From IMG/VR virus record IMGVR_UViG_3300012920_000342, positions 1 through 21,274 of that record: a stretch of 21,274 bases of DNA; one strand, given 5' to 3'. Origin of the DNA: a virus. Positions 9,762-21,274 of the stretch are shown here, in pieces. The notes under the pieces are model-generated. The model worked only from the letters and a program-made list of their open reading frames with translations. It was not told the DNA's origin and did not search any database. The first letter of the stretch is position 1. Each line of letters starts with the position of its first letter. Both the position numbers and the translations under genes were made by a program.

Positions 9762-9944
9762 TTGTCCGAACTAGCACTAACATATATCGTAAATCCGCTA
9801 GACAATTTTTTTAAGAGCGTCGATAGGTTCTTTATGACAGTAGGCTATGCAAGAGCCGCTGCCGAACTTTCACGCATGGGTAAACACGAAGAAGCAAAGC
9901 AACTTTTGGCTGAAAAGTTAAGACTTGAGATGGAGACAAAATAA
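9762..9944 (+). CDS. Small helical protein, unknown function
   Basis: 60 residues from TTG 9762, supported by GGGAG at about 9749-9753. It has VNPLDNFFKSVDRFFMTVGYARAAAELSRMG, then an Ala/Lys/Glu helix. Short proteins of this type (a VNP segment, then AR/RAAAEL helix) occur in marine phages, but I know no function. The stop overlaps the pseudoazurin ATG (TAATG), so the two are coupled. Confidence 0.7.
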   Translation: MSELALTYIVNPLDNFFKSVDRFFMTVGYARAAAELSRMGKHEEAKQLLAEKLRLEMETK

Positions 9945-10372
9945 TGAAAACACTTGCATTTTATCTAACCGCATTTGCTATCATGTTCGCTGTTGGCACT
10001 GCTAACGCAATGACAATCGAAATGCTGAACAAAGATGCAGATGGCAACAAGATGATCTATAGTGAAGAGATTGCTCATATTGCTGTAGGCGAATCTATCA
10101 CATGGGTACCGACAGATAAGGGTCACAATGTAGAAATCATTGCCGCACCCGAAGGTTTCGATATTCCGAAGAAGTCGAAGAATAGTAAAGAAGTGACAAT
10201 TGAGTTCACAGTACCAGGCGTATACTACTACTGGTGTACACCACACAAAGGCATGGGCATGATCGGTCTTGTCGTTGTTGGTGAAGATACACATAACAAA
10301 GATGCAGTAGCCAAAGCAAAAGCACTTGGTAAGTCTAAGAAGAAACTCAAGAAGCTATTGGAGGATATCTAA
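9944..10372 (+). CDS. Pseudoazurin (secreted blue copper protein)
   Basis: 142 residues. A Sec signal peptide is clear: MK, a hydrophobic core, and an Ala-Asn-Ala cleavage site at about residues 20-22. The mature part matches pseudoazurin throughout: MLNKDADG, VPTDKGHNVE, TPGVYYYWCTPH-like strand and HKGMGMIGLVVVG. All four type 1 copper ligands are present: His61, Cys98, His101 and Met106 (C+3, C+8 spacing as in the family). The Lys-rich C-terminal helix is also typical. Pseudoazurins carry electrons in the periplasm to nitrite or nitrous oxide reductase, cytochrome c peroxidase or other partners. In a phage this is an auxiliary metabolic gene. GGAG at 9932-9935 precedes the ATG. Confidence 0.93.
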   Translation: MKTLAFYLTAFAIMFAVGTANAMTIEMLNKDADGNKMIYSEEIAHIAVGESITWVPTDKGHNVEIIAAPEGFDIPKKSKNSKEVTIEFTVPGVYYYWCTPHKGMGMIGLVVVGEDTHNKDAVAKAKALGKSKKKLKKLLEDI

Positions 10373-10527
10373 TGCTTGCTAAACTCTTTGAATTATTTCG
10401 GGTCGATCCCCTTGACTATCAACGAAAAGCTGAAGAAGCTTGGCTTGCTAAGTCTGTTGACCTTGTTGACTTGGAGCGTCGTCAGCGACAACTCACATAT
10501 GGGCAGAAAAAAACTGGGTTATTCTAG
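10372..10527 (+). CDS. DUF3563-like small protein
   Basis: 51 residues from ATG 10372, with a strong GGAGG (10360-10364) and TAATG coupling to pseudoazurin. The segment EEAWLAKSVDLVDLERRQRQL matches DUF3563, a family of about 50 residues with YLAQSxDLxDLERRxR text in proteobacteria. Function unknown. A longer frame in this stretch (10376-10567) is a shadow. Confidence 0.68.
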   Translation: MLAKLFELFRVDPLDYQRKAEEAWLAKSVDLVDLERRQRQLTYGQKKTGLF

Positions 10528-10538
10528 GGAGATATATC

Positions 10539-10601
10539 ATGTGGCCGTATACACAGGAAGAAAATGACTATTTGTCAGAAAAAAATCAAAAGAGGGCTTG
10601 A
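10539..10601 (+). CDS. 20-residue microprotein
   Basis: ATG 10539 follows AGGGAG closely (about 10526-10531) and encodes MWPYTQEENDYLSEKNQKRA. The WPYTxEE start looks like a conserved small motif, but I cannot name a family. Its TGA (10599-10601) is inside both the loop of the terminator and the TTGACA of the next promoter. Confidence 0.5.
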   Translation: MWPYTQEENDYLSEKNQKRA

Positions 10602-10618
10602 CATGGCCCTCTTTTTTT
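10591..10618 (+). terminator. Strong intrinsic terminator closing the pseudoazurin cassette
   Basis: AGAGGGC (10591-10597) pairs perfectly with GCCCTCT (10606-10612), with an 8-base loop TTGACATG and a T run to 10618. The loop carries the -35 hexamer of the next promoter. Confidence 0.88.
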
Positions 10619-10626
10619 GTTAAAGT
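10598..10626 (+). promoter_or_regulatory. Sigma-70 promoter nested in a terminator
   Basis: TTGACA (10598-10603), a 17-base spacer containing the terminator's 3' arm and T run, and TAAAGT (10621-10626). Expected start near 10633, so the transcript would open directly with the folded leader. Confidence 0.7.
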
Positions 10627-10636
10627 GATTCGTAAA
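10625..10636 (+). repeat. Shared leader element, copy 1
   Basis: GTGATTCGTAAA, followed by TCAGAGAGGG. The same element is at 16089-16100 and 19846-19857, where it is followed by AGAGAG-rich ribosome sites. Here it overlaps the -10 hexamer. Confidence 0.75.
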
Positions 10637-10728
10637 TCAGAGAGGGCATTAAGGTTGGTTGGCCCACAGTGAAAGTTCCATCAGTATGGTGTGGGATTGA
10701 AGTTGCCCTCTCTGATCCTAACTTGGAG
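10636..10728 (+). ncRNA. Structured leader RNA, riboswitch-like (candidate)
   Basis: A 13-pair perfect outer stem (10636-10648 with 10704-10716) encloses an inner hairpin: CCCACA (10663-10668) with TGTGGG (10690-10695) and CCAT (10678-10681) with ATGG (10686-10689), around a CAGT loop and a 9-base bulge. The bulge AAGTT (10673-10677) is complementary to AACTT (10720-10724), which abuts the GGAG ribosome site (10725-10728), so a pseudoknot could hide it. No known class recognised. Together with the promoter this fills the 135-base gap before the next gene. Confidence 0.65.
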
Positions 10729-10736
10729 ATAAATAA

Positions 10737-10817
10737 ATGACTGGATTCATGTGGTTTCTCTGTGGTGTCTTTACAGGCATCGCTGTAGTAATGTACTATC
10801 TGGTTTGGGCTCTGTAA
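10737..10817 (+). CDS. 26-residue membrane microprotein
   Basis: ATG 10737 follows GGAG (10725-10728). The product, MTGFMWFLCGVFTGIAVVMY plus six residues ending in VWAL, is essentially one transmembrane helix. It is the first gene after the folded leader. A second protein of exactly 26 residues and similar type lies at 16357-16437, the second gene of the transcript that carries copy 2 of the shared leader element. Function unknown; holin-like, toxin-like or complex-stabilising roles are all possible. Confidence 0.6.
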   Translation: MTGFMWFLCGVFTGIAVVMYYLVWAL

Positions 10818-10818
10818 G

Positions 10819-10935
10819 ATGCATAAATGGATTATAGGAATAGTAGTACTAGCACTTCTCGCAAAGAATGATTGGGAGATGTTTAGTTTACTACATGAGT
10901 TTTTAGTTACATGGCTTCGTAGCTCAACTGGATAG
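10819..10935 (+). CDS. 38-residue membrane microprotein overlapping a tRNA (uncertain)
   Basis: ATG 10819 lies just after the previous stop and encodes MHKWIIGIVVLALLAKNDWE followed by 18 residues. The first 15 residues could span the membrane. No good ribosome site is seen, and its last 7 codons and TAG stop (10933-10935) are inside tRNA-Arg, so it may be chance or a coupled gene with a tRNA-borne end. Confidence 0.35.
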   Translation: MHKWIIGIVVLALLAKNDWEMFSLLHEFLVTWLRSSTG

Positions 10936-10989
10936 AGCAACAGACTTCTAATCTGTAGGTTGCAGGTTCGAGTCCTGCCGAAGTCGCCA
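10913..10989 (+). tRNA. tRNA-Arg(TCT)
   Basis: A full cloverleaf with encoded CCA (10987-10989). Acceptor GGCTTCG pairs with CGAAGTC; the anticodon stem ACAGA/TCTGT holds loop CTTCTAA, giving anticodon TCT, which reads AGA. The T arm is GCAGGTTCGAGTCCTGC. AGA is the main arginine codon in many genes here, so it likely supplies a codon the host uses little. Confidence 0.95.
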
Positions 10990-10993
10990 ATAT

Positions 10994-11083
10994 GGAGAGT
11001 TGGCAGAGCGGTTGAATGCACCGGTCTTGAAAACCGGCAAAGTTGAAAAACTTTCGAGAGTTCGAATCTCTCACTCTCCGCCA
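10994..11083 (+). tRNA. tRNA-Ser(TGA)
   Basis: 90 bases with the long variable arm of a class II tRNA and encoded CCA (11081-11083). Acceptor GGAGAGT pairs with ACTCTCC; the anticodon stem CCGGT/ACCGG holds loop CTTGAAA, so the anticodon is TGA, reading TCA. Only 4 bases separate it from tRNA-Arg, so both probably come from one transcript. Confidence 0.95.
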
Positions 11084-11100
11084 TTCACGAGGAGTAGATA

Positions 11101-11712
11101 ATGGCAAATCATGTAAGTAGCACACTGACACTTCACTCAGGTAGCATGGAAGTACTCAAATGGTTTCACGGTCTATGTGATAGAGCAATCATTCCTGAAG
11201 AAGAGCGACCCAAAGATAGTTGGGAATATTTAAAGCCTGTCTACGAACTGTTCGATACATGGGATGATACAGAAGATAGAGATACCCGTGCATGGTGGGT
11301 AGATAATATTGGTGCAAAGTGGTGTCACTTTATTGACGTAGGTGATGACTCGATGCACTTTGAATCCGCATGGGGATATCCTGATGCGCTGTTTTTGCGT
11401 ATTCATCAAGAAGCATGTAAGATTGATCCTAATGTGGTCATGACTATTAGATATGATGACGAGATGCCAAACTTCTTTGGCTCTGCCGTCTACGCTAATG
11501 GTGAAATGTATGATGAAGAATATTGGGACAGTGATAGTTATGATAATTTAGAATTGAAGTTCTATTGGGATGAAGAAGAAGAGGGTGCCGAAGAACCTGA
11601 AGACTGGGAGCCTACTTACGATAGACTGTATGAAATTCAAGATGATGATATCAGTGGTATGCTTGAAAGTTTGGCAGAGGTAAGGGAAGATGCATCCGAT
11701 TCAACTGACTGA
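11101..11712 (+). CDS. Api92-like protein with YubB ferredoxin-like domain
   Basis: 203 residues. MANHVSSTLTLHS at the start and RAWWVDNIGAKWCHFIDV...MHFESAWGYPDALFLRI in the middle match the Api92/YubB (DUF1281) pattern of N-H-x-x-x-x-L-x, W...N.G.KW and AW. The domain is widespread on phages and plasmids and its function is unknown. The C-terminal third is extremely acidic (WDEEEEGAEEPEDWEP). A GAGGAG-type site precedes ATG 11101, just after the tRNA genes. Confidence 0.72.
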   Translation: MANHVSSTLTLHSGSMEVLKWFHGLCDRAIIPEEERPKDSWEYLKPVYELFDTWDDTEDRDTRAWWVDNIGAKWCHFIDVGDDSMHFESAWGYPDALFLRIHQEACKIDPNVVMTIRYDDEMPNFFGSAVYANGEMYDEEYWDSDSYDNLELKFYWDEEEEGAEEPEDWEPTYDRLYEIQDDDISGMLESLAEVREDASDSTD

Positions 11713-11881
11713 GAAGCGCATTGATTCCGCAATGGAAGCAATGAACAACTGTAAAAGAGGCACTTGGGCCCACAACTATTGGAGTAATGTAGTAGGCTAC
11801 TTACTCAGAAAACTAAATGGAGAAGTAAATGAGGCAAACACTCATCAAAGCACTGCGTCAACACGCTATTGGACACATTGA
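11690..11881 (+). CDS. Small protein, unknown function
   Basis: 63 residues from ATG 11690, overlapping the Api92-like gene by 23 bases. The core LTEKRIDSAMEAMNNCKRGTWAHNYWSNVVGYLLRKLN looks like a folded helical unit (K-R-G-T-W, then Y-W, then LLRKLN). The last 17 residues overlap the next gene in another frame. No family name known to me. Confidence 0.6.
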   Translation: MHPIQLTEKRIDSAMEAMNNCKRGTWAHNYWSNVVGYLLRKLNGEVNEANTHQSTASTRYWTH

Positions 11882-12032
11882 ACTACATAAAGCAAACATC
11901 GAAGTATATCTGCAAAATCCTGCAGGTATCGGTGAACACTCTGATATCGTTGAAGCAATGGAAAAAGAACTAAACACTATTGCACACTACGAAGATCAAC
12001 TCGAGGTGCTTGACAAATACTTTGCGGACTGA
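11829..12032 (+). CDS. Conserved marine-phage protein, helical, unknown function
   Basis: 67 residues from ATG 11829 after GGAGAAG. The pattern GHIELHKANIEVYLQNPAGIGEHSD followed by VEAMEKELNTIAHYEDQLEVLDKYF resembles a small protein I recall from T4-like cyanophages and other marine phages. It is helical with a likely coiled-coil C-terminal half. Function unknown. Codons near its end supply the -35 of a consensus promoter (12010-12038). Confidence 0.75.
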   Translation: MRQTLIKALRQHAIGHIELHKANIEVYLQNPAGIGEHSDIVEAMEKELNTIAHYEDQLEVLDKYFAD

Positions 12033-12038
12033 TATAAT
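12010..12038 (+). promoter_or_regulatory. Perfect consensus promoter overlapping the glutaredoxin start
   Basis: TTGACA (12010-12015), exactly 17 bases, TATAAT (12033-12038). All 12 bases match the sigma-70 consensus. The -10 shares two bases with the glutaredoxin ATG (12037), so RNA started near 12045 would lack that start codon. Confidence 0.5.
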
Positions 12039-12279
12039 GCCATATGTAATTTACGGAAGAGAAGATTGTAGTTATTGTCGTATGGCGAAGCGATTCTTAG
12101 ATGACAGACAAGAAGAGTTTCGCTATATCGATATTAGTCAAGATGATTTATCGAAGGCATATCTTCAAGCTGAGGGACACAAAACTGTTCCTCAGATTTA
12201 TGCTAACGGCACACATATTGGTGGCTACACTGATCTGGTATCACTTTTTGGTGAAGGCTCTTATGGAGACAACGCATAA
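12037..12279 (+). CDS. grx: Glutaredoxin
   Basis: 80 residues from ATG 12037 (an upstream in-frame start at 11980 would lie deep in the previous gene). The active site CSYC (Cys11-Cys14), the cis-proline loop TVPQIY and the glutathione-binding GGYTDL are all present. Glutaredoxins use glutathione to reduce disulfides; in T4 the equivalent feeds ribonucleotide reductase. A class II reductase is encoded in this window, and the neighbouring oxygenases could also benefit. The stop overlaps the next ATG (TAATG). Confidence 0.93.
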   Translation: MPYVIYGREDCSYCRMAKRFLDDRQEEFRYIDISQDDLSKAYLQAEGHKTVPQIYANGTHIGGYTDLVSLFGEGSYGDNA

Positions 12280-12887
12280 TGATGAAACTTGATTACTTGT
12301 TTCCTAGACCAGTATTTCATTCAGAACCCGATTTTGATGTATCTAGGTTGAAAGCCTTTTACAATAAAATCAGGGAACTGGATGAGACTGGTGCGAGGCA
12401 AAGTAATATAGGTGGATGGCAGTCTAATCTAATCAACATAGATGAATATGAAACAACTAGAGATTTTAGAGATGTTGTAGAAGAAAACATAAACAGTATG
12501 TTGAGTGAGTTTGGAGTAGTTAGAGCAAGATTTAAAATGTCGGCTATGTGGCTCAACTGTAATATTAATGACAATACGAATAGTGATCATATTCACGGGC
12601 CTGCATTCTTATCTGGAACATACTACATAAAAGTTCCTGAATCTTTAGAAGAAACAGATGATGGTGCGCTTGTCATAGCTGATACTTTTGATCAACAATA
12701 TTATAAGAATGCTTTGCTTTTATGTTGTGATCAGCCAACAAATCTGAGTGCATCTGAAGTGTCATATATTCCAAAAGAAGGCAAACTCATAGTCTTTCCA
12801 GCAAATCAAAGACACAGAGTAACACCAACTTATGTCAATGAAGAACGCATTAGTACAAGTTTTGATTTCGATTTGGAGTATTTCTAA
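12279..12887 (+). CDS. 2OG-Fe(II) oxygenase, Oxy_5 type
   Basis: 202 residues (ATG 12282 is an alternative start). Putative iron ligands are His104 and His106 in DHIHGPAFLSGTYYIKVP, and His179 in PANQRHRV; Arg190 in NEERISTSFDF would bind 2-oxoglutarate. The HxH plus FLSG-YY pattern is that of the 2OG-FeII_Oxy_5 family found in many marine phages. These enzymes hydroxylate substrates using O2 and 2-oxoglutarate; the substrate is unknown. Confidence 0.83.
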   Translation: MMKLDYLFPRPVFHSEPDFDVSRLKAFYNKIRELDETGARQSNIGGWQSNLINIDEYETTRDFRDVVEENINSMLSEFGVVRARFKMSAMWLNCNINDNTNSDHIHGPAFLSGTYYIKVPESLEETDDGALVIADTFDQQYYKNALLLCCDQPTNLSASEVSYIPKEGKLIVFPANQRHRVTPTYVNEERISTSFDFDLEYF

Positions 12888-13456
12888 TGGATTATAAACT
12901 TTGGGATATTGAATTTATAGAAGCTAACAAAGATACTTTTGTAGAACAGTGTCATATGTTTCATAAAGCTATTCAAGAATCAGTTGATGATGAAGATACG
13001 ACAAGAGCATATAGAAAGTATAATATATTTCAAGTAGCTGGTGGTAGTTATGGATTTTACATCTTGTATAAAACTGTCATACAAAATATACGAGAATATG
13101 TTGGAGATGACAGACCACTTTGGATGAGCGGTTGGTTGAACTTTCATGATCCATCAGAAGTACTAGATTGGCATAGTCATTATGGTAGTTTGTGTCATGG
13201 TTATTTAAGCATTGATCCGAAAAACACAACCACAAAATTTGAAGGCTATGATATTGAAAACAAGGTCGGAAGAATGTATCTGGGCCCTAGTTATAGAGAA
13301 CATAAAGTCGTAGTCAATGAGCCCTATGAGGGATATAGAATTACACTAGGATTTGATGTTAGTGATGGCACAGATGAAGATGGTGACGGTCATCTGTTAA
13401 TTAATACTAAAGAAACATCTGGACACGAATACCAATATTGTTTACCAGTACCATAA
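12887..13456 (+). CDS. 2OG-Fe(II) oxygenase-like protein
   Basis: 189 residues, coupled to the previous gene by TAATG. LDWHSHYGSLCHGYLSID offers His96 and His98, EHKVVV offers His139, and GYRITLGFDV offers Arg151, the order and spacing of a double-stranded beta-helix dioxygenase. It is only distantly similar to its neighbour. Its N-terminal third is unassigned. Substrate unknown. Confidence 0.7.
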   Translation: MDYKLWDIEFIEANKDTFVEQCHMFHKAIQESVDDEDTTRAYRKYNIFQVAGGSYGFYILYKTVIQNIREYVGDDRPLWMSGWLNFHDPSEVLDWHSHYGSLCHGYLSIDPKNTTTKFEGYDIENKVGRMYLGPSYREHKVVVNEPYEGYRITLGFDVSDGTDEDGDGHLLINTKETSGHEYQYCLPVP

Positions 13457-13468
13457 GAGAGGAAGCAA

Positions 13469-13783
13469 ATGGCAAAACCATCATACAGACAAGTTGAACA
13501 AATGAATGCTGAAATTGAAGAAGCAGAAGAGAGAATGAGACAGCAACAACAAATTCGTTCTGGGTTAGCATTAGGTATTATTGAAGTGTCTTTTACAAAG
13601 AAAGATGGCACAGAACGGACAATGAAATGCACACTAAATAGTCAGTATCTACCAGAACAGAAAGACCTCGAAGAAGAGATTGACAAACGAAATAAGTCTG
13701 ATGAGGTAATTGCTGTCTGGGACATTGAAAAAGAAGGCTGGCGATCATTCCGCTGGGACAGTGTGAAAGGCTATAAAGTATGA
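13469..13783 (+). CDS. WYL_2/Sm-like SH3 beta-barrel protein (DUF2693-like)
   Basis: 104 residues, with GAGGAAG before ATG 13469. An N-terminal coiled-coil (about 5-28, with QQQQ) is followed by EVSFTKKDGTERTMKCTLNSQYLPEQKD and VIAVWDIEKEGWRSFRWDSV, a pattern I associate with the phage WYL_2/DUF2693 family. WYL-type barrels often bind nucleic acids or ligands. Role here unknown. Its stop overlaps the next start (ATGA). Confidence 0.72.
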   Translation: MAKPSYRQVEQMNAEIEEAEERMRQQQQIRSGLALGIIEVSFTKKDGTERTMKCTLNSQYLPEQKDLEEEIDKRNKSDEVIAVWDIEKEGWRSFRWDSVKGYKV

Positions 13784-14769
13784 AACTGAATATTGTTGAT
13801 GATACGAAGAAAGATGATGATGACGAGTTCTCAATGGGGCCGACAATAGACGGCACCTATACAGATGCCAAAGGTGGCACTGAACTGATGAACAAAGCAC
13901 TGTACGAGCGAGTAGACAATGACTTGCTCGACCAGTTCTATCTTATCAAGTCTAGAGTTCGGTGGACCGATCCTAAAAGACCAAATCTTCTATGGCTTCA
14001 TGACACTTGGGATGATCCTGAGTCGCAACACCTGAAAGATGCAGAAGCAAGAAAGCGTTTTGCAAAACTGATCTTTGTGTCGAACTATCAACTTCAAACA
14101 TACAATCTTGCACTTGGTGTTCCGTATCACGAATCATTCGTTATGAAAAATGCGATTGACCCCATTCCGTATGCAGAGAAGCCTAAAGATCGAATCAATC
14201 TTATCTATCACACAACACCTCATCGTGGACTAAACATTGCAGTAGCGGCTATGAAAGAACTGGCTAAACTGCATGGTGATAAGATTCATCTTGACGTATA
14301 TTCTTCTTTCGAGGCGTATGGTTGGCCTGATAGAGATAAGCCATACTTGAGTTTGTTCGATGAGATTCGTGAGCATCCAAATATGACATATCATGGCTTT
14401 CAGGAAAATAGTGTTGTTCGTGAAGCACTACAGAAAGCACACATCTATGCATATCCTAACATATGGCCCGAGACATCTTGTATCTCTGCTATCGAAGCAA
14501 TGTCTGCAGGCTGTCAAGTCGTGTGTCCTAATCACGCCGCTCTACCAGAAACAACTGGTGGTTTTGCCACGATGTATCAGTTTAGTGAAGATATGAATCA
14601 ACATGCGAATGTCTTTGCTAACTTCTTGAACGCCTCTATTGAAAACCACAACTCAGAAGACATGCAGAGAAAAATGGCTTTCCAGAAGAACTGGACTGAT
14701 AACTTCTACAACTGGGATCTAAGATCGGCAGAGTGGACAGGTCTTCTTCAAGGACTTCTGAAGTCATGA
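13780..14769 (+). CDS. GT4-type (GT-B) glycosyltransferase
   Basis: 329 residues. The Rossmann-like C-terminal half has INLIYHTTPHRGLNIAV (about 139-155), and the sugar-nucleotide motif PETSCISAIEAMSAGC with Glu231 and Glu239 (EX7E). LWLHDTWDDP and LIFVSNYQ in the N-terminal half also fit GT4 enzymes. It lies among oxygenase genes rather than with the glycan cassette at 5743-9460, but could act on the same product. Coupled both upstream and downstream by ATGA. Confidence 0.85.
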   Translation: MKLNIVDDTKKDDDDEFSMGPTIDGTYTDAKGGTELMNKALYERVDNDLLDQFYLIKSRVRWTDPKRPNLLWLHDTWDDPESQHLKDAEARKRFAKLIFVSNYQLQTYNLALGVPYHESFVMKNAIDPIPYAEKPKDRINLIYHTTPHRGLNIAVAAMKELAKLHGDKIHLDVYSSFEAYGWPDRDKPYLSLFDEIREHPNMTYHGFQENSVVREALQKAHIYAYPNIWPETSCISAIEAMSAGCQVVCPNHAALPETTGGFATMYQFSEDMNQHANVFANFLNASIENHNSEDMQRKMAFQKNWTDNFYNWDLRSAEWTGLLQGLLKS

Positions 14770-15347
14770 TCTATGACGTAATCGATGACGTTATGCCCGA
14801 TCACTTTAACAAGTATATGATCGAAGCCCTTATACAGGTTAATAGATGGCGTCAAGCATTACCCGAATTGCATTCAGTTAAAAAGGACACATTGGTTGAT
14901 GATGCAGGAATGACAATGCTATCATTTCCAAATGAAGATGAAGACCACAAACTGAATCGTCTCAATATTTTATGTGATGTTATTCTGAATGGCGCTTTAG
15001 AAAGACACTCTTCTATTGGACGTTTTGAGAATTTTGATGTAGATAGATATGTGTTCAATCTTTACAATAGAAATTCTGTCTGTGATTTTCATCAAGATGT
15101 AACTCTTACTGGATTAGATCCTGGTCAGTATCTATCGACTTTCATTTATTCATTTAATGACTGTGATGGATACAATATCATTGCTGATGAAAAAATTGAA
15201 AGTAAAGCTGGTAGACTTATTTTATTTCCTAGTAATGTTTCACATAAAGCATATCCACCAAAGAATCAACCTCATAGATACTCATTAAACTGTCAATTCA
15301 AATATAGTTCATATTTCAGATACAATGATAATTACGGAACAGAGTAA
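14766..15347 (+). CDS. 2OG-Fe(II) oxygenase
   Basis: 193 residues from ATG 14766 (the longer frame from 14733 lies inside the transferase). The HxD pair is His109-Asp111 in DFHQDVTLTG, the distal ligand is His160 in NVSHKAYPP, and Arg171 in PHRYSLNCQF is the likely 2-oxoglutarate anchor. This follows the prolyl-4-hydroxylase-like layout. Substrate unknown; it is directly coupled to a glycosyltransferase, so sugar or protein hydroxylation are both possible. Confidence 0.78.
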   Translation: MIYDVIDDVMPDHFNKYMIEALIQVNRWRQALPELHSVKKDTLVDDAGMTMLSFPNEDEDHKLNRLNILCDVILNGALERHSSIGRFENFDVDRYVFNLYNRNSVCDFHQDVTLTGLDPGQYLSTFIYSFNDCDGYNIIADEKIESKAGRLILFPSNVSHKAYPPKNQPHRYSLNCQFKYSSYFRYNDNYGTE

Positions 15348-15875
15348 ATGAACATAGAAGTCATTGACAATTTTTTAGACCCACATGAGTTTGAAGAACT
15401 GAAAGATTTCATTTTTCATCCTGATGAAAACAGTAACATGAGAATGAATTGGGTTATGAATTATGGCGTGACAAATTCTGATGAAGATTCTTTTCAGTTC
15501 AATCATATGTTTTATGCGGATGGCGCACCACAATCTGATCAAATGAACTTATTAGTTCCTATTCTGACAAAAATACCAAATTTATTGTCAATGCTCAGAA
15601 TAAAAGCAAATCTTTTGACTAGAACATTAAATCATGAACAGCATGGATATCATGTTGATATGCATGACGCACAAGGACTTCCTCACAAGTCTGCGATATT
15701 CTATTGCAATACAAACAATGGATGGACACAGTTTGAGAATGGCACAAAAGTAGAAAGCATTGCAAACAGAATGGTCATGTTTGACGGACAACTAAAACAT
15801 TGTAGTGTGAGTCAAACAGATGAACCGTTTAGGGTTGTGATAAATTTTGTTTACATAGAAAAGCGAGTGATGTAA
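15348..15875 (+). CDS. 2OG-Fe(II) oxygenase, related to the one at 20596
   Basis: 175 residues. It opens with VIDNFLDPHEFEELKDFI, the usual N-terminal helix-strand of phage prolyl-hydroxylase-like proteins. Ligands are His102-x-Asp104 (YHVDMHD), His151 (LKHCSVSQT) and Arg162 (EPFRVVINF). The stretch NTNNGWTQFENGTKVESIAN closely parallels the fifth oxygenase (20596-21126), so the two look like paralogues within this genome. Substrate unknown. Confidence 0.82.
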   Translation: MNIEVIDNFLDPHEFEELKDFIFHPDENSNMRMNWVMNYGVTNSDEDSFQFNHMFYADGAPQSDQMNLLVPILTKIPNLLSMLRIKANLLTRTLNHEQHGYHVDMHDAQGLPHKSAIFYCNTNNGWTQFENGTKVESIANRMVMFDGQLKHCSVSQTDEPFRVVINFVYIEKRVM

Positions 15876-16045
15876 TGAGACACGAAGAATATATGAAACA
15901 GCGAATCGCAGAAGAAAAAATGCAAAAACCGGGGGTAAATGTAGAATATACCAACATGCGTTTGACAAAAGAAGTCGATCAAATCTTACAACGACTTGAA
16001 ATCATTGAGGAAAAAATTGACGAATTAATTAAAAAAAGGGGTTGA
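15875..16045 (+). CDS. Small charged helical protein, unknown function
   Basis: 56 residues from ATG 15875, in TAATG overlap with the oxygenase. An internal NVEYTNMRL is followed by a heptad-like stretch, VDQILQRLEIIEEKIDELIKK, a likely coiled coil and oligomerisation helix. Its last codons are inside the 5' arm of a terminator-like hairpin and its TGA is in the TTGACA of the next promoter. No family recognised. Confidence 0.6.
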   Translation: MRHEEYMKQRIAEEKMQKPGVNVEYTNMRLTKEVDQILQRLEIIEEKIDELIKKRG

Positions 16046-16058
16046 CATAATCCCTTTT
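16034..16058 (+). terminator. Terminator-like hairpin with promoter in the loop
   Basis: AAAAGGG (16034-16040) pairs with CCCTTTT (16052-16058), extended by G16041-T16051, with a 9-base loop TTGACATAA. The + strand T run is short (TTTTCC). On the - strand the run is longer, so it may work in both directions. Confidence 0.55.
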
Positions 16059-16069
16059 CCTGTTAGGAT
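16042..16069 (+). promoter_or_regulatory. Sigma-70 promoter nested in a hairpin
   Basis: TTGACA (16042-16047), a 16-base spacer and TAGGAT (16064-16069). The upstream gene's TGA is inside the -35, and the -35 is in the hairpin loop, as at 10598. The leader then carries the shared element and an AGAGAGAGA ribosome site. Confidence 0.68.
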
Positions 16070-16088
16070 GTAAGAGTAAGAGATAAGA

Positions 16089-16100
16089 GTGATTCGTAAA
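16089..16100 (+). repeat. Shared leader element, copy 2
   Basis: GTGATTCGTAAA followed by GAAAGAGAGAGACC and ATG 16115. It is 12/12 identical to copy 1 and 11/12 to copy 3. The bases just upstream (GTAAGAG..) also resemble those of copy 3 (GTAAGTTAG..). Confidence 0.8.
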
Positions 16101-16114
16101 GAAAGAGAGAGACC

Positions 16115-16357
16115 ATGTTTCGCATTCCCGCTTTTCATCAGATGAACCTCGGCTTCGAAGAAGCCTGTGCCATGCTCCGTGGCCATGCTGGTCAAGATAC
16201 CTTGATCGGCGCTATGGAAGCTGTGCAACAGCTTTGGGAAGACCATGCCCAGCGTGATGCTGGTCACGATGACCGGTTCTTTGAGACTTGGGCGTATGAA
16301 CTGAATGCCTACAATGCCGTTTTCACTCAGATGCATGACCTGCTTGGAGAAGCTTAA
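16115..16357 (+). CDS. Small protein, unknown function, possibly early and highly expressed
   Basis: 80 residues. The AGAGAGAGACC site sits directly before ATG 16115. Sequence: MFRIPAFHQMNLGFEEACAM, then a helical, His/Asp/Glu-rich region (LWEDHAQRDAGHDDRFFETW). It is much richer in G and C than its neighbours and uses codons such as CTC, GCC and CGC. It has its own promoter and conserved leader. I know no family. Early host-directed genes often look like this. Confidence 0.65.
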   Translation: MFRIPAFHQMNLGFEEACAMLRGHAGQDTLIGAMEAVQQLWEDHAQRDAGHDDRFFETWAYELNAYNAVFTQMHDLLGEA

Positions 16358-16437
16358 TGATGATCGCTGTTAAAATTCTGATGGGTACTTTTGGTGCCCT
16401 CGCTGTTATCGCCCTTCCTATTCTTCTTGTCTGGTAA
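16357..16437 (+). CDS. 26-residue membrane microprotein
   Basis: ATG 16357 overlaps the previous stop (TAATG). The product (MMIAVKILMGTFGALAVIAL then PILLVW) is a single hydrophobic helix. It has the same length as the microprotein at 10737-10817 and a similar end (VW). Function unknown. Confidence 0.58.
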   Translation: MMIAVKILMGTFGALAVIALPILLVW

Positions 16438-16450
16438 AGGAGATCATATC

Positions 16451-16672
16451 TTGAAACACTGTCTACATAAGGGTAGATGCATAGTTCTCAAAGCATCTAC
16501 TCGACACGGCAAAAATCGCATTCATCAACATGGTGACATTTGGTGGATCAAAGAAGTTCGTAATGATCGTATGCTTCTAGAAAGCAACGACCGAACTGAT
16601 AGAGGTGAGTTCGACTGGCGTTGGGTTGACCTACAAGATGACAGAGACTTTACATGGGAGCTTGCACGATGA
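16451..16672 (+). CDS. Small basic protein, unknown function
   Basis: 73 residues from TTG 16451, chosen because AAAGGAG (16436-16442) is 8 bases upstream; the longer frame from 16391 would read across the microprotein. The region RCIVLKASTRHGKNRIHQHGDIWWIKEVRNDRMLLES, then FDWRWVDLQDDRDF, looks like a compact beta-rich domain. I recall similar phage proteins but no function. Coupled to the next gene by ATGA. Confidence 0.68.
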   Translation: MKHCLHKGRCIVLKASTRHGKNRIHQHGDIWWIKEVRNDRMLLESNDRTDRGEFDWRWVDLQDDRDFTWELAR

Positions 16673-17145
16673 ATCGTAAACAACTTGAAGAATCCATTCT
16701 TGAAGACCTCACAGTCAAACGACCAAAAGCAAAGCGCAGGCGCAAGCCAATGACGCCAGAACAGAAGGCGGCTGCGGCAGAACGCTTGGCCAAAGCCCGT
16801 GAGAAACGACAGAAGGCAAACCCACCAAAGTATGCCAATGTACATGCTTCGGTTCTTGCACTGCCTGATGATCATCCATTCTCTCGAAAGGCTGTGACTG
16901 ACTGGATCAAACACCAGAAAGAACTGCTTTCAGAGTATCGAAGGCAAGAGCGAATGAAGATGAAAGGTGCTCCTGCAAAGGTTGCGAATGCTGTAGCCTA
17001 CATTCGACACTGTGAGTGGTATCTCAAAAATGGTGATTGGATCGATAGTTACTATGGCAAAGATGCAGACAAGAAGGTCCGCCGTCGAGTCATCGTACCG
17101 TCGAAAACTACTAAATATGAGTATCACGACGAAGAGGAGACGTAA
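16669..17145 (+). CDS. Conserved phage protein, basic, unknown function
   Basis: 158 residues from ATG 16669. The N-terminal third is Lys/Arg/Ala-rich and helical (VKRPKAKRRRKPMTPEQKAAAAERLAKAREKR), suggesting nucleic acid binding. The core has PPKYANVHASVLALPDDHPFSRKAVTDWIKHQKE and AVAYIRHCEWYLKNGDWIDSYYG, text typical of a conserved protein in T4-like marine phages. Function not known. TAATG coupling to the next gene. Confidence 0.68.
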   Translation: MNRKQLEESILEDLTVKRPKAKRRRKPMTPEQKAAAAERLAKAREKRQKANPPKYANVHASVLALPDDHPFSRKAVTDWIKHQKELLSEYRRQERMKMKGAPAKVANAVAYIRHCEWYLKNGDWIDSYYGKDADKKVRRRVIVPSKTTKYEYHDEEET

Positions 17146-17501
17146 TGACAAATATAATAAAGTTTCCTAGCGACTATAAGCCTGAAACCTTATCAGATGT
17201 CCAAGAGAAGATCGATATGGCGAAAGAGAAGTATGTGAATGCTTTGGTCGATCATCATTGCAGTCAACTTCTGGCTAACATCAGTCTGTCTGGAATTGAA
17301 ATCGAGACTGATGACTTCATGAAAGATTTCGCCTTCACAATTGAAACCGTTCGATCAGCAATGTATCGAAGTATGAGACTATCACATCCACTTCAAGATC
17401 AAATCGATGAAGCCATCGAACTTGTTGACACAGAAGAAGATGACGATTTCTCTGATGAGAGGATGTTACGTTGGGATGATGACGACGACGAAGAAGACTA
17501 G
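17145..17501 (+). CDS. Conserved phage protein with acidic tail, unknown function
   Basis: 118 residues. IIKFP near the start, then a helical middle (VNALVDHHCSQLLANISLSGIEIETDDFMKDFAFTIETVRSAMYR) and HPLQDQIDEAIELV resemble a small protein I know from marine phages. The last 22 residues are nearly all Asp and Glu. Function unknown. The acidic codon run (GATGATGACGACGACGAAGAAGAC) contains the likely start of the next gene in another frame. Confidence 0.65.
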   Translation: MTNIIKFPSDYKPETLSDVQEKIDMAKEKYVNALVDHHCSQLLANISLSGIEIETDDFMKDFAFTIETVRSAMYRSMRLSHPLQDQIDEAIELVDTEEDDDFSDERMLRWDDDDDEED

Positions 17502-17724
17502 AAACTACTATACCCAGAGACAATGGGATAGAACAGTTGGTTGGGGCAAAGTACCAAAGGAGTATCAGATGCCATCTAGTGAAGATATGTTGATTGAGCG
17601 TATTCTGCAAAACGAACTAGACACAATGAAAGTTTTGCAGAATGAACAGTACACTGATGAAGATGTAGTTGTTCGAAACTGGATGAAAAAGCGAATTGAA
17701 GACTTGACAAACGAGGACGAATAG
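17476..17724 (+). CDS. Small protein, unknown function (start uncertain)
   Basis: 82 residues if it starts at ATG 17476; 17479, 17455 or 17407 are other in-frame choices. Upstream residues overlap the previous gene and look unconserved, while NYYTQRQWDRTVGWGKVPKEYQMPSSEDMLIERILQNE looks like the conserved core. It is acidic at the end. Its 3' end carries the TTGACA (17704) of the promoter for RNase H. Confidence 0.58.
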   Translation: MMTTTKKTRNYYTQRQWDRTVGWGKVPKEYQMPSSEDMLIERILQNELDTMKVLQNEQYTDEDVVVRNWMKKRIEDLTNEDE

Positions 17725-17732
17725 TTTACTAT
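17704..17732 (+). promoter_or_regulatory. Probable sigma-70 promoter before RNase H
   Basis: TTGACA (17704-17709), 17 bases, TACTAT (17727-17732). A better-looking TATAAT (17732-17737) sits 22 bases from the -35, which is too far, so TACTAT is the likelier -10. The ATG is at 17764. Confidence 0.5.
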
Positions 17733-17763
17733 ATAATATAGGATGAAAAATTGAGTAGAGATT

Positions 17764-18627
17764 ATGATACTCTTAGATTTGAATCAGGTAATGATTTCGA
17801 ACCTGATGATGCAACTAAACAATCGAAACAACATTGTCGAAGAGGACATGCTTCGGCACATGATTCTTAACAGTCTACGGCTGTACAAAACAAAGTTCAG
17901 TAAAGACTATGGCGACCTTGTAATCTGTTGTGATGACAAGAATTACTGGCGCAAAGAAATCTTCCCATACTACAAAGCACACAGAAAAGCAGACCGTGAA
18001 AAGTCTCCTCTTGACTGGAACAACATCTTCACCATTCTGAATAAGATTCGTGACGAGATGAAAGAGACTTTTCCTTGGCGTGTTCTTCAAGTAGAGACGG
18101 CAGAGGCTGATGATATCATCGGTACTCTCTGCCATCGTTTTGGTCGAACACTGAAAGCAGACGATGACGAACCCATTCTTATTCTGTCTGGCGACAAGGA
18201 CTTTGGTCAGCTACAGAAGTATGCAAACGTCGAACAATTCTCACCCATCACAAAGAAGTGGATCCGTATCAACAATCCAGAAGCCTTCTTGCGTGAGCAT
18301 ATTATGAAGGGTGATCGAGGCGACGGCATTCCTAATTTTCTGTCTGGTGACAATGTGATAGTTGTTGGTCAAAGACAGAAGCCACTTTTGTCGAAGAAAC
18401 TTGATACATGGATTTCTCTTCAACCCGAAGACTTCTGTAACGATATGATGTTGCGTAATTACAAGCGCAATGAATCATTAGTCAATCTTGACATGATCCC
18501 ACAACATATTCAAGACAGTGTAAATGATTTGTATGATAAATATGAGATACCCCCAAGAAAGGGTCTACTAAATTACTTTATCAAACACCGTTTGAAGAAT
18601 CTTATGGATAGCATTGGAGATTTTTGA
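17764..18627 (+). CDS. rnh: T4-type RNase H (5'-3' flap exonuclease)
   Basis: 287 residues. The 5'-nuclease acidic residues are visible: Asp5 in LLDLNQ, Asp57/58 in ICCDDKNYWRKEIFPYYK, the AEADDIIGTL motif (113-122), LSGDKDFGQL (141-150) and the helix-three-turn-helix DRGDGIPNFLSGDN (184-197). In T4 this enzyme removes RNA primers from Okazaki fragments, partnering with gp32 and gp45. Its TGA overlaps the next ATG by one base. Confidence 0.92.
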   Translation: MILLDLNQVMISNLMMQLNNRNNIVEEDMLRHMILNSLRLYKTKFSKDYGDLVICCDDKNYWRKEIFPYYKAHRKADREKSPLDWNNIFTILNKIRDEMKETFPWRVLQVETAEADDIIGTLCHRFGRTLKADDDEPILILSGDKDFGQLQKYANVEQFSPITKKWIRINNPEAFLREHIMKGDRGDGIPNFLSGDNVIVVGQRQKPLLSKKLDTWISLQPEDFCNDMMLRNYKRNESLVNLDMIPQHIQDSVNDLYDKYEIPPRKGLLNYFIKHRLKNLMDSIGDF

Positions 18628-19058
18628 TGAGAAAGACTTTCTATGAAATTTTTACAGAAGTCGAAAAGTGTAAAACGAAGAAAGAGAAGATTGCTAAACT
18701 TAGAGAGAATAGCAGTGCGGCTATGAAAGCCGTATTGGGTCATACATATGATCCTGGTGTAAAATGGCTTTTACCAGAAGGTGATCCGCCATACAAGCCA
18801 GCGGTAGACGGTGTTGATGTACAAGGTCAGTTTGTCTCAGAGTTGAGAAAGCTTTATCTCTTTATTGATGGCCCTTCTGAGACACAGAGAAACTTAAAAC
18901 AGATTCGAAGAGAACAGCTATTTATTGAGATGTTGGAAAACATCGATCCCGGAGATGCAAAAGTTCTACTTGGTATGAAAGATGGTAAATTGCCATTCAA
19001 AGGTCTTACCAGAAAACTTGTAGCAGAAGCATTTCCTAGCATTTCTAAAAACTGGTGA
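18627..19058 (+). CDS. DUF6433-like conserved phage protein
   Basis: 143 residues from ATG 18627. MRKTFYEIFTEVEKCKTKKEKIAKL, GVKWLLPEGDPPYKP, LRKLYLFIDG and KGLTRKLVAEAFP fit a conserved family of T4-like marine phages that I know as DUF6433. Helical and basic. It sits after RNase H, so a replication-linked role is possible but unproven. Confidence 0.72.
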   Translation: MRKTFYEIFTEVEKCKTKKEKIAKLRENSSAAMKAVLGHTYDPGVKWLLPEGDPPYKPAVDGVDVQGQFVSELRKLYLFIDGPSETQRNLKQIRREQLFIEMLENIDPGDAKVLLGMKDGKLPFKGLTRKLVAEAFPSISKNW

Positions 19059-19078
19059 AAGGAAGATAGGTCACTCAT

Positions 19079-19261
19079 ATGGCTAAGAATAAGAAGACTG
19101 CCCAGAGCGATGATGAGCGTGGCTTCAAGCGTATTAAAGAACAGCGCAAGCCGATTAAGAATTTCAAGACGCATTTGAAAGATGTAGCGCAAGCATATTT
19201 GGATGAGGAAGACTTTGATCATGAAGACGGCATTTATTATAGGAAACGGGACGAGTCGTAA
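19079..19261 (+). CDS. Small Lys/Arg-rich protein, unknown function
   Basis: 60 residues from ATG 19079, with AAAGGAAG upstream. MAKNKKTAQSDDERGFKRIK and RKPIKNFKTHLKDVAQAYLDEED resemble short basic phage proteins seen near replication genes. Probably binds nucleic acid or is disordered. Its last 41 bases overlap the next gene. Confidence 0.62.
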   Translation: MAKNKKTAQSDDERGFKRIKEQRKPIKNFKTHLKDVAQAYLDEEDFDHEDGIYYRKRDES

Positions 19262-19802
19262 ACCCGTCGATTTGAATAAGCTTGTAGGCAAAGGCACCAT
19301 TTTTGGATGTAATGCTCTATATCGTGAGTTCAAAAACTATGATTATCTGATCTCAATCGATAGACAGTTTCAGATGATCATGGAAGCAAACGATGAAGTT
19401 TTTGGTGAAGATAAAAGAAATATCTTTCCACCAGAAGATGAGTGTTACGAAAGTGCAGAGTACAATCCGCAAAGACGGCGGAGCAATGCTGGCATGAATG
19501 CTATGCTCGAGGCTATTCGAAGAAACCATGACAAGTTGTATTGTTTGGGATTTGACTTTTTGCTTGAAGATGACGAGTTGTCAGAAGATAATCTCTTCAA
19601 GAATCAAAAGGGATATGGACCAGAGACTCATGCGAATCACTTAGACAACGTGCATCGAGTCGCATATCTCGAATGGTTTATGAGAAAATATCACTACACT
19701 CAGTTCACTTTTGTTTTACCAGAAGGTGAACCATTTCAAACACTTACAGCACCAAATGTATCTGGCATGTTTATTTCAAAATTTATTGAAAAAATGTGTT
19801 GA
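19221..19802 (+). CDS. Conserved protein with GNGTSR motif, possible transferase
   Basis: 193 residues from ATG 19221 (GAGGAAG upstream; ATG 19203 is the alternative). It opens with a strand and glycine loop, AFIIGNGTSRKPVDLNKLVG, then TIFGCNALYREFKNYDYLISIDR, SNAGMNAMLEAIRRNHDKLYCLGFDF and THANHLDNVHRVAYLEWF. This type, a GNGxSR loop and an N-A-L-Y segment, recurs in phages and resembles Rossmann-like DUF115 or sialyltransferase folds. I cannot assign an activity. Its TGA is inside the -35 of the next promoter. Confidence 0.65.
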   Translation: MKTAFIIGNGTSRKPVDLNKLVGKGTIFGCNALYREFKNYDYLISIDRQFQMIMEANDEVFGEDKRNIFPPEDECYESAEYNPQRRRSNAGMNAMLEAIRRNHDKLYCLGFDFLLEDDELSEDNLFKNQKGYGPETHANHLDNVHRVAYLEWFMRKYHYTQFTFVLPEGEPFQTLTAPNVSGMFISKFIEKMC

Positions 19803-19827
19803 CATATATCTCTCTCCTTGCTATAAA
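19799..19827 (+). promoter_or_regulatory. Sigma-70 promoter
   Basis: TTGACA (19799-19804), 17 bases, TATAAA (19822-19827). Near-consensus. The -35 holds the TGA of the upstream gene. The spacer contains TCTCTCTCC, an inverted match to the GAGAGAGAGA ribosome region about 45 bases downstream. Confidence 0.8.
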
Positions 19828-19845
19828 GTATATGTAAGTTAGTTA

Positions 19846-19857
19846 GTGATTCGCAAA
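19846..19857 (+). repeat. Shared leader element, copy 3
   Basis: GTGATTCGCAAA followed by GAGAGAGAGACATG, which runs into ATG 19869. One base differs from copies 1 and 2. Confidence 0.8.
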
Positions 19858-19868
19858 GAGAGAGAGAC

Positions 19869-20123
19869 ATGACGAAAGAAACGATCTTCCTTAACGCCCA
19901 GAACGGTGCTGTCGCTGTCTACAAAGGTGTAGCAAATCTTGTCGGTCTTGCCAAGAACGGTAAGACTCTGAAGTATATCTTTGACACTCACAACATCGAC
20001 TACATGAATGACCGTGTGTTCTTTCAAAGCACCATGGACTTTGCTGACGAAGAAGGTTTTGCTACCGCTGATGGTGCAAAGCAGATTGTAGCTGAAATGA
20101 TCAACGAAATGGAGATTGCATAA
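19869..20123 (+). CDS. Small protein, unknown function, possibly early and highly expressed
   Basis: 84 residues, with GAGAGAGAGAC before ATG 19869. Sequence has IFLNAQNGAVAVYKGVANLVGLAKNGKTLKYIFDTHNIDY and ends in an acidic helix. Codons are host-like (CTT, GTC, AAC, CGT) and few AGA occur. Near-consensus promoter plus shared leader suggests strong early expression. No family recognised. TAATG coupling to the next gene. Confidence 0.65.
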   Translation: MTKETIFLNAQNGAVAVYKGVANLVGLAKNGKTLKYIFDTHNIDYMNDRVFFQSTMDFADEEGFATADGAKQIVAEMINEMEIA

Positions 20124-20596
20124 TGTCTGCCTTTGTGATTGAAACTTCTGTTCTTGAAAACTATGCTGCCCATGATTCTGATTGGGATGGTGAGACAATG
20201 CGCTGGAAGCCCAAAGTCGGTTCTCGCTACATTGTCGAAACTGGCAATATGGCAGATGTTCGTGAGGTTCAGAATTTAGTGACATCTGAATCTGACTCGC
20301 TTATCGAGTCTACCTCTGACATCTATCAGGTCGAAGATTCTAACTGGGAGTCCGAGTTTGTTAAGATGCAGAAAGAGTATGACCCTCACGGTTGGGACAC
20401 GATCTACCTCGATCCTGTCATCCGTCGTGGTAAAAACTCTCACTGGTTTATGAAGCGTGGCTACATCGCCGGCAAGCACCTCGAAGATGACGAAAAGTTT
20501 GGTCATCTTGCTGGTAAGTTTGTCGGTTGGGTTGACAATCTCACAACTGGCGAATGTGTTCTTAAAATCGAAGGTGATAAAAGAGAGGTACTTTAA
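20123..20596 (+). CDS. Phage protein, unknown function
   Basis: 157 residues. It starts MSAFVIETSVLENYAAHDSD and contains MRWKPKVGSRYIVETGN and DPHGWDTIYLDPVIRRGKNSHW. The ENYAAHD and W-K-x-K-G-S-x-Y-I-V pattern recalls small phage proteins of unknown role. Arginine is almost always CGT/CGC here, as in the preceding gene. TAATG coupling to the oxygenase that follows. Confidence 0.65.
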   Translation: MSAFVIETSVLENYAAHDSDWDGETMRWKPKVGSRYIVETGNMADVREVQNLVTSESDSLIESTSDIYQVEDSNWESEFVKMQKEYDPHGWDTIYLDPVIRRGKNSHWFMKRGYIAGKHLEDDEKFGHLAGKFVGWVDNLTTGECVLKIEGDKREVL

Positions 20597-21126
20597 TGGA
20601 AGTAACACCACATAAAATCATAGATAACTTTTTGTCAGAAGAAGAACATCAAGATATCTATAGAAGGCTTATGCATGAGCAAATGCCACTAGAAGAAATG
20701 GGACAAACAGTGCCAATGTATTTCTCAGAAAATAGTGCATATCCAGGTGATACAGATGGTGGAGGTCACTGGTATAATCCACTTTATTTAGATCCACATC
20801 CAGTAAGTGACCACTTTGAGCCTATCTGTTATCCTATTCTAAAAAATGTAGCTGTCAAAGCTGTTGTTCGTGCTAGAGTCAATTGGTACTATAAAACACC
20901 AGAAATTATTGAACATGCTATGCATACAGATTTAGATTCTCCTATCGATAATCTTTTATATTATGTAAACACTAATGATGGATATACAAAGCTTCAATGT
21001 GGTACTAAAATCGAAAGTATCGCTAATCGGGCGGTATTCTTTCAAGGACATTTAGATCACTGTAGTACGACTACAACTGATCAACTACTAAGATGTAATG
21101 TCAACATTAATTTTATAGCACACTAG
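20596..21126 (+). CDS. 2OG-Fe(II) oxygenase, paralogue of the one at 15348
   Basis: 176 residues. IIDNFLSEEEHQDIYRRL opens the protein; ligands are His110-x-Asp112 (AMHTDLD), His155 (LDHCSTTTT) and Arg166 (LLRCNVNINF). YYVNTNDGYTKLQCGTKIES parallels NTNNGWTQFENGTKVES in the protein at 15348-15875. Codons revert to the AGA-rich phage style right after two host-like genes, so it may have a different history. Substrate unknown. Confidence 0.83.
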   Translation: MEVTPHKIIDNFLSEEEHQDIYRRLMHEQMPLEEMGQTVPMYFSENSAYPGDTDGGGHWYNPLYLDPHPVSDHFEPICYPILKNVAVKAVVRARVNWYYKTPEIIEHAMHTDLDSPIDNLLYYVNTNDGYTKLQCGTKIESIANRAVFFQGHLDHCSTTTTDQLLRCNVNINFIAH

Positions 21127-21139
21127 GGAGAATTAAAAA

Positions 21140-21274
21140 ATGCTATATAAGTCTCATCGTGATTTTGAGCCCGTCTATGAATATGGCGGTAAACTACTCG
21201 GTCGTTTTGAACATGACGATTATGAAGGTTTCAAAAAATATGATTATCATGTTTATGAACTTGCCGAGATTAAA
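21140..21274 (+). CDS. Start of an unknown gene (3' end missing)
   Basis: Only the first 45 codons are in the window. AGGGAG (about 21124-21129) precedes ATG 21140 by about 10 bases. The visible part, MLYKSHRDFEPVYEYGGKLL followed by GRFEHDDYEGFKKYDYHVYE, is Tyr-, Asp- and His-rich. Too short to assign. Confidence 0.6.
   Translation, partial: MLYKSHRDFEPVYEYGGKLLGRFEHDDYEGFKKYDYHVYELAEIK

Follow-up and report, generated by a model that had tools for sequence, protein, structure and literature searches.

Do the small genes that stand behind two repeated promoter-leader units in a virus sequence encode abundant early proteins, and what do promoter, leader and codons each contribute to that picture? 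The question is raised by the IMG/VR virus record IMGVR_UViG_3300012920_000342, whose 21,274 bases form the window analysed here (G000), and by three of its genes, which we name by their first base: an 80-amino-acid (aa) open reading frame (ORF; 16115), an 84-aa gene (19869) and a 157-aa gene (20123). An earlier note on this sequence had read all three as early, abundant, host-directed proteins, on the coincidence of a strong promoter, a shared leader and adapted codons. A strong early promoter and an abundant protein are supported for 19869 and only weakly for 16115 and 20123, and the three things that the note had merged now separate: a family-linked promoter with its ribosome-binding leader, a clade-specific GTGATTCG box, and a codon bias.

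The window reads as one piece of a T4-like marine phage genome. By RNase H, with 55.6% identity, its nearest isolate is Methylophilales phage Melnitz, which is classed in Kyanoviridae. L- and G-numbered names denote contigs or records of relatives, G001 being a 72-kb and G002 a 125,860-base relative.

The 84-aa protein family

IMG/VR contains 110 relatives of the 84-aa protein, and among isolates Melnitz encodes a member. From the best 80 of the 110 relatives, 57 distinct proteins were collected and 55 aligned. Residues A10, G26, S54, M56-A59, E61, G63, F64 and A70 are invariant in the aligned members, and the stretch from about 54 to 64, which holds the SxMDFADEEGF segment, is nearly so. The family is acidic, with K+R minus D+E ranging from -2 to -11 in 56 members.

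Promoter and codons were followed through 52 contigs, the window included, each of which had four or more background ORFs. A sigma70-type promoter lies within 110 bases 5' of the gene in 45 of them, and in 44 of these 45 the -35 element is TTGAC followed by a 17-nt spacer; the -10 element varies (TATAGT, TATACT, TATATT). The fraction of C-ending codons (those of F, Y, I, N, H and D) is above the contig background in 48 of the 52 contigs (means 0.480 vs 0.356, Wilcoxon p=4e-8), whereas the fraction of G-ending codons (K, E and Q), a control for plain guanine-plus-cytosine (GC) content, is above it in only 32 (p=0.2). The major capsid gene, used as a positive control, stands at the 99th percentile for C-ending codons in Melnitz, the 99th in G002 and the 100th in G003; no capsid gene was found in G001. 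Raised C-ending codons without a matching NNR shift, the pattern of translational selection, were found for the 84-aa gene alone. Because its promoter is conserved, its leader purine-rich and its capsid-like codon bias conserved, the 84-aa protein is probably an abundant early product.

The isolate member is encoded by Melnitz gene 47 (QZI94558.1), a 50% identical homolog of the 84-aa protein directly behind TTGACT-17-TATAGT and a GAGAGAGG leader. Its C-ending codons are at the 90th percentile, like those of the window gene in being raised; a different gene lies downstream, and the product is annotated only as a hypothetical protein. In an excerpt of the Melnitz description (PMC9004378), its authors equate the early promoters with the sigma70-type ones. 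The T4-like early promoters of that excerpt are likewise near-consensus sigma70 promoters, many of them before small genes of unknown function; unlike these, about half of the promoters with ribosome-binding leaders in the clade studied here have in common an additional 8-bp box close to the start site. In T4 middle promoters a MotA box replaces the -35 element; here the -35 is intact.

AlphaFold2 gave a confident model of the 84-aa protein (predicted local distance difference test, pLDDT, 93.9; predicted template modelling score, pTM, 0.84), in which three strands, a helix, a strand and two helices follow one another. Foldseek searches of PDB and BFVD with this model returned nothing at E<0.001 (best E 0.22). 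The top VIA-align rows were mostly ribosomal-protein chains (Z at most 5.8, root-mean-square deviation 3.0-3.5, 69 aligned), which we take to be uL18 and uS11, the rows mostly naming only the ribosome; with Z under 8, this resemblance may be only a common arrangement. It is one of fold, and a PDB sequence search gave no match better than E=1.1. A HicB-like or uL18-like fold, suggested by weak structural matches, is not claimed. Searches of Pfam, PHROGs, NCBIfam and PADLOC with the window protein gave no match at a curated cut-off or significant E-value, and in PHROGs one of the 55 family members weakly matches phrog_4400 (E=0.0039). The protein belongs to a conserved unnamed phage family with no clear structural match. 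Since the SxMDFADEEGF segment is kept across phages of probably different hosts, the most likely role of the protein is to bind some partner that is itself widely conserved. With promoter and codons both suggesting high early expression, the family would make a good first target in studies of host takeover by marine phages.

Repeated cassettes and their codon usage

Leader GTGATTCGYAAAGARAGAGAGA occurs in the window at 16089 and 19846, each time 3' of a TTGACA promoter (16042 and 19799) with sigma70-type hexamers spaced within 16-18 nt. No match was obtained in 100 shuffles, and a search of the window allowing up to three mismatches found no further copy. Genes 16115 and 19869 directly follow the leader, as had been claimed of all three; 20123 does not, being the second gene of an operon, its start overlapping the 19869 stop by one base.

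For codon usage, the three genes were compared with the other 37 of 40 hand-listed window genes. CGT, CTC, GTC and GCC make up 30 of their 83 Arg, Leu, Val and Ala codons against 235 of 1505 in the others (gene-permutation p=0.0004), which agrees with the enrichment described in the note; these four codons had, however, been picked post hoc, after looking, and other indices were therefore used. C-ending codons are again more frequent (50/97 vs 674/1872, p=0.0125), as is CGN among Arg codons (11/12 vs 165/316, p=0.0015), and the G-ending control gives 28/58 vs 439/1150 (p=0.079). Taken singly, 16115 has 10/24 C-ending and 5/13 G-ending codons. The unlisted 26-aa ORF at 16357-16437 is also biased, ranking third on the four-codon measure. 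In the window, C-ending codons are commoner in small genes than in large ones (0.414 vs 0.358), but small size as such goes with no bias in G001, Melnitz, G002 or G003. The codon usage of the three genes can be described as capsid-like and AGA-avoiding; that it is host-like is a conjecture of the note. PMC5683454 deals with how early and late phage genes use codons.

The sister contigs carry, 1.5-3.0 kb 5' of RNase H, where 16115 also lies, different small ORFs behind box promoters: 59-aa, 33-aa and 108-aa proteins and, directly 3' of the box in nine contigs, 26- or 27-aa hydrophobic relatives of the peptide at 16357-16437. The comparison is one of positions and not of full gene order. Such varied small genes behind like promoters suggest that promoter, box and ribosome-binding leader form a module placed before exchangeable small genes. 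The box is not a mark of host-directed genes, as the note would have it, since among the nine box promoters of G001 one each precedes a 742-aa, a 383-aa and a 288-aa protein and one a structured RNA; by eye, the 742-aa protein looks like a von Willebrand-type protein and the 383-aa one like an AAA protein. Promoter-first genes have raised C-ending codons in G002 (p=0.009), G003 (p=0.042) and Melnitz (p=0.003). The first genes of G001 box promoters (n=8), a set chosen after the box had been seen, exceed the 113 others in C-ending codons (0.454 vs 0.364, p=0.003) and in CGN among Arg codons (0.88 vs 0.49, p=5e-5).

We favour, with confidence slightly above even, a reading as modular early sigma70 cassettes, in which a leader with the GTGATTCG box is followed by small, efficiently translated genes, the 84-aa product being a takeover protein and the box a DNA-level site. 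Judging by its type, the near-consensus promoter would be an early one served by the RNA polymerase of the host; the short leader would hold the box, close to the start of transcription, and a GAGAGA stretch for ribosome binding, with one or two small genes after it. The purine-rich leader would make initiation efficient, and codons adapted to a fast-decoded set, the bias itself being observed, would do the same for elongation. The window encodes tRNA-Arg(UCU) and tRNA-Ser(UGA), and the use of CGN instead of AGA would fit translation at a time when the phage-encoded tRNA-Arg(UCU) is still scarce. The 84-aa product would be abundant early; most likely this small acidic protein serves takeover by binding, through SxMDFADEEGF, a widely conserved component of host or phage; that it is host-directed is a conjecture of the note. 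The architecture, its repetition, the varied small genes that follow one promoter type in sisters and the capsid-like bias of the 84-aa family are established. The feature is real and for the most part well described in the note; it is ordinary in kind, an instance of early small-gene cassettes, but it includes a conserved protein family that has no name and a promoter box that has no explanation.

Several observations weigh against this reading. A consensus promoter scan of positions 8000-21274 found no excess of promoter-like sites (35 vs 36.9 expected from shuffles), and its filter misses the 19799 promoter; the promoter claim thus rests on conservation and position, not on consensus match alone. 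The 52 contigs are mutually related, hence not 52 independent tests, and L058, L073, L076 and L077 lack the C-ending bias of the 84-aa gene. Distant relatives retain the promoter and codon bias of this gene mostly without the GTGATTCG box, which makes the box a separate, clade-specific layer; its DNA-level interpretation rests on few promoters. In automatic gene calls of the window, promoter-first genes are not raised in C-ending codons (3 genes, p=0.67; 19869 was left out, as TATAAA failed the -10 filter), nor are those of G001 (p=0.17). Promoter-first genes of the window (p=0.016), G002 (p=0.014) and Melnitz (p=0.001) also have more G-ending codons, and so do the eight G001 box-promoter genes (0.506 vs 0.409, p=0.03). 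A close-relative search of IMG/VR found no relative of the 80-aa gene. The codon signal, which persists in relatives of 19869, is not kept in those of 20123: four of its six IMG/VR relatives were measured, and their C-ending fractions are 0.21-0.33 vs 0.48 here (21/44).

The codon difference in 16115 and 20123 might instead be compositional, with small genes of recent or foreign origin having a higher GC content and no selection for expression, an explanation that we hold to be tenable but short of even chances. Gene 16115, with no relative found, has a GC content of 0.51, the window as a whole one of 0.40; gene 20123 has more G-ending codons (16/30) as well as more C-ending ones, and its C-ending bias is absent from four relatives. 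As G-ending codons are raised in promoter-first and box-promoter genes of several records, a compositional cause may apply to promoter-first genes outside the 84-aa family. It accounts less well for the four examined relatives of 20123, which keep CGN among their Arg codons (7/8, 7/8, 7/8 and 4/4), and for the 84-aa gene, with its C-only pattern of translational selection.

The GTGATTCG box

From 29 clade loci, 43 distinct leaders with a ribosome-binding stretch were obtained. The box is matched in at least 7 of 8 positions in 21 of the 43, against 0.37 expected from simple leader shuffles, and the matches are bimodal, with 18 perfect, 3 with one mismatch and 22 with at most 5 of 8. Across 123 promoters, no other 7-mer present in at least 6 of them is as enriched as TGATTCG (22 vs 1.0). 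Ahead of the structured RNA and at G001:924, box and -10 hexamer overlap, and a start site 6-7 nt further on would leave most of the box untranscribed, which favours a role at the DNA level. Most likely, in our view, the box serves in regulation as a DNA site of the promoter, and it yields a hypothesis that is testable in laboratory strains. A literature search for GTGATTCG with phage and promoter gave nothing on the box among the matches listed, which is not proof of its absence from print.

Measured from the end of the -10 element, the box offsets of 24 hand-picked sites cluster at -2, 9-10 and 17-19, with one at 6 (resultant length 0.87, period 10). Helical phasing is only a hint here, as the leaders are related and the modes may stem from a small duplication.

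It seems unlikely that the box acts in the RNA, with GAGGTGAT pairing with the 3' end of 16S rRNA and the leader serving as a translation enhancer. The box does lie between the -10 element and the start codon in most leaders, and 9 of the 31 listed box sites contain GAGGTGAT, which matches the complement of the 16S tail over 8 nt. However, 20 of the other 22 sites match only GTGAT at longest, or outside the box; the distance from box to start codon is not fixed; TTCG is constant yet not complementary to the tail; and the overlap with the -10 element described above also speaks against a role in RNA. An upstream ORF in the box (GTG ATT CGY AA, M-I-R-K/N) was considered and rejected, its frames and lengths varying and some copies, by eye, stopping after three or four codons.

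More doubtful still is the idea that the box is a GcrA/CcrM operator of an alphaproteobacterial host, tying the cassettes to the host cell cycle. In Caulobacter, GcrA with sigma70 activates promoters with methylated YGAKTCG within -40 to +40 of the start site (excerpt of PMC7987155), and the clade's promoters resemble these sigma70 promoters (PMC7987155 and PMC3667746, both in excerpt) in having the motif within 40 bp of the predicted start, inferred here from the -10 box. TGATTCG fits YGAKTCG, the L118 variant GTGAGTCG takes the other permitted K, and 9 of 28 G001 promoters have the motif on the top strand, with 0.62 expected. Unlike the Caulobacter sites, the clade box appears one-sided (23 sites on the top strand for 4.4 expected, 3 on the bottom strand for 3.3; a single plausible inverted box, L098:5256), though the site is nearly palindromic and its orientation should hardly matter according to the excerpt of PMC7987155; the conserved sequence is also longer than YGAKTCG. 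The same excerpt gives no extended motif for Brevundimonas, only GANTC. An alphaproteobacterial host with CcrM methylation and GcrA is an assumption of this reading. In the promoter sets of relatives, which are loose and will hold false promoters, YGAKTCG is absent from the scored promoters of Melnitz (0/70), which in this differs from the clade, of G002 (0/68) and of contigs with 60-72% identical RNase H (0/134), and is rare in G003 (1/58) and distant 84-aa contigs (8/217). No GcrA gene was found in the 24 phage records searched, mostly fragments. A phage-encoded CcrM was rejected: PF01555 occurs in three of nine records (G014, G015 and, weakly, G002), but the G014/G015 methyltransferase is far under the CcrM cut-off (64.9 of 830 bits) and the G014 protein fits generic N4/N6 methylases better.

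Permuted transfer-messenger RNA (tmRNA) genes occur within the clade (L098:4285-4649, L116:9430-9772, L123:15128-15506 and L127:14642-14952), with tags such as ANDNFAPEMRLAA. Permuted tmRNAs are common in Alphaproteobacteria, and their presence would suit an alphaproteobacterial host. The Melnitz tmRNA, however, is of alphaproteobacterial kinship according to its authors, yet this phage infects OM43 (excerpt of PMC9004378). GANTC is strongly depleted in G002 (108 found vs 402 expected by a Markov estimate), the lowest of 24 letter permutations, as if the host restricted or read GANTC.

A wider conjecture, that the box defines a dedicated DNA-level phage regulon, possibly of the GcrA/CcrM kind, driving takeover proteins, membrane micropeptides and an 85-nt RNA as exchangeable cassettes, is rather improbable; if true, the phage would sense the cell-cycle state of its host when firing the early programme.

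That the cassettes are late, TATAAAGTA at 19822 being a degenerate T4-type late promoter, is very improbable, for although TATAAAGT is near the late box TATAAAT cited for Melnitz (excerpt of PMC9004378) and a late structural gene, that of the capsid, is also codon-biased, the -35 element and its 17-nt spacer are kept in nearly all contigs with a scored promoter and the -10 variants of the 84-aa family do not fit the late box.

The structured RNA and other features of the window

Following the third copy of the box led to an RNA with strong covariation and no Rfam match: this promoter and box precede an 85-nt hairpin and then a 26-aa ORF (Table 1). A covariance model from 11 sequences gave 51 matches in 87 chosen sources, which include core-pattern contigs and training loci, and the exact core pattern was found in 48 IMG/VR stretches. 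In 28 distinct rows, 98.0% of cells pair, in an alignment fitted to the structure, and both partners vary at 16 of the 21 pairs, among them the full 13 of the outer stem; when the partners are slid against each other, pairing falls to 38-49%. In 500 shuffles, 24 attained the real value of one of five measures, that of further pair types, and none attained that of the other four. A MAFFT alignment of the 11 sequences still has 12 of 21 pairs changing on both sides. Rfam gave no match for this RNA at the gathering cut-off (the best weak one being RF00249, 14.8 of 44.7 bits) and only tRNAs at gathering in the whole window; blastn of two of the RNA sequences against the collection of phage isolates gave no match. 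Among the matches listed by a search for literature on new structured RNAs in phages, none concerns this RNA, which does not prove its absence. The RNA is a candidate for a new structured family.

A promoter lies just upstream in 32 of the 49 occurrences examined (of 51), the stem beginning 3-10 nt after the -10 box, and a tRNA gene lies within 1.5 kb in 12 of the 49, some occurrences being near-duplicates. A Pedobacter match of the core was set aside as chance: it runs antisense to an apparent radical-SAM coding sequence (by eye), and no stem was seen. A terminator-like hairpin, AAAAGAGGGC...GCCCTCTTTT followed by a T-run, occupies window positions 10588-10615, and its loop contains the -35 TTGACA of the RNA promoter, so that terminator and promoter overlap.

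Table 1. Features of the cassettes and of the structured RNA locus, in window coordinates
Feature	Position (strand)	Details
sigma70-type promoter, cassette 1	16042..16069 (+)	TTGACA 16042-16047, 16-nt spacer, TAGGAT 16064-16069; consensus match only
GTGATTCG box, cassette 1, then purine-rich leader	16089..16096 (+)	shared leader element
80-aa ORF directly 3' of leader	16115..16357 (+)	no relative found; highest GC among hand-listed genes
26-aa hydrophobic micropeptide MMIAVKILMGTFGALAVIALPILLVW	16357..16437 (+)	start overlaps stop of 80-aa ORF
Micropeptide relatives		L112, L113 (27 aa), L116, L117, L015, L118, L121, L126, L128
sigma70-type promoter, cassette 2	19799..19827 (+)	TTGACA 19799-19804, 17-nt spacer, TATAAA 19822-19827; conserved in relatives
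GTGATTCG box, cassette 2, then CAAAGAGAGAGAGAC-ATG	19846..19853 (+)	
84-aa conserved phage protein	19869..20123 (+)	codon-biased, acidic family
157-aa ORF, second gene of cassette 2	20123..20596 (+)	6 relatives in IMG/VR; C-ending bias not conserved
Third promoter and box	10598..10632 (+)	TTGACA 10598-10603, TAAAGT 10621-10626 overlapping GTGATTCG 10625-10632
Structured RNA, candidate new family	10636..10720 (+)	covarying 13-bp outer stem, conserved internal loop GGUUGGUUGGCCCA...GUGAAAGUUCCA
26-aa hydrophobic micropeptide MTGFMWFLCGVFTGIAVVMYYLVWAL 3' of structured RNA	10737..10817 (+)	

A megablast search of the window against phages returned 28 records; among the matches listed (best 20 of 28) there were only short pieces, namely tRNA-like stretches and one 157-base piece in a reductase-like gene. 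The structure model of the 157-aa protein, built from 5 sequences, is poor (pLDDT 63.9). The gene at 20596 matches phrog_274 (E=7e-37). AT-rich genes at 12279-13456, 14766-15875 and 20596-21126 use mostly AGA and AGG for Arg, unlike the CGN-using genes.

At G001 sites 10455, 13937, 20736 and 69448, -10 hexamers (TATATT, TATAAC) lie 6 nt 5' of an ATG, and similar promoters with 10-nt gaps occur at window position 1116 and at G001 38152. In the G001 promoters with the -10 element adjacent to the ATG, the start site would coincide with the start codon, making leaderless phage mRNAs possible; by eye, one of the candidate leaderless genes looks like a DNA polymerase.

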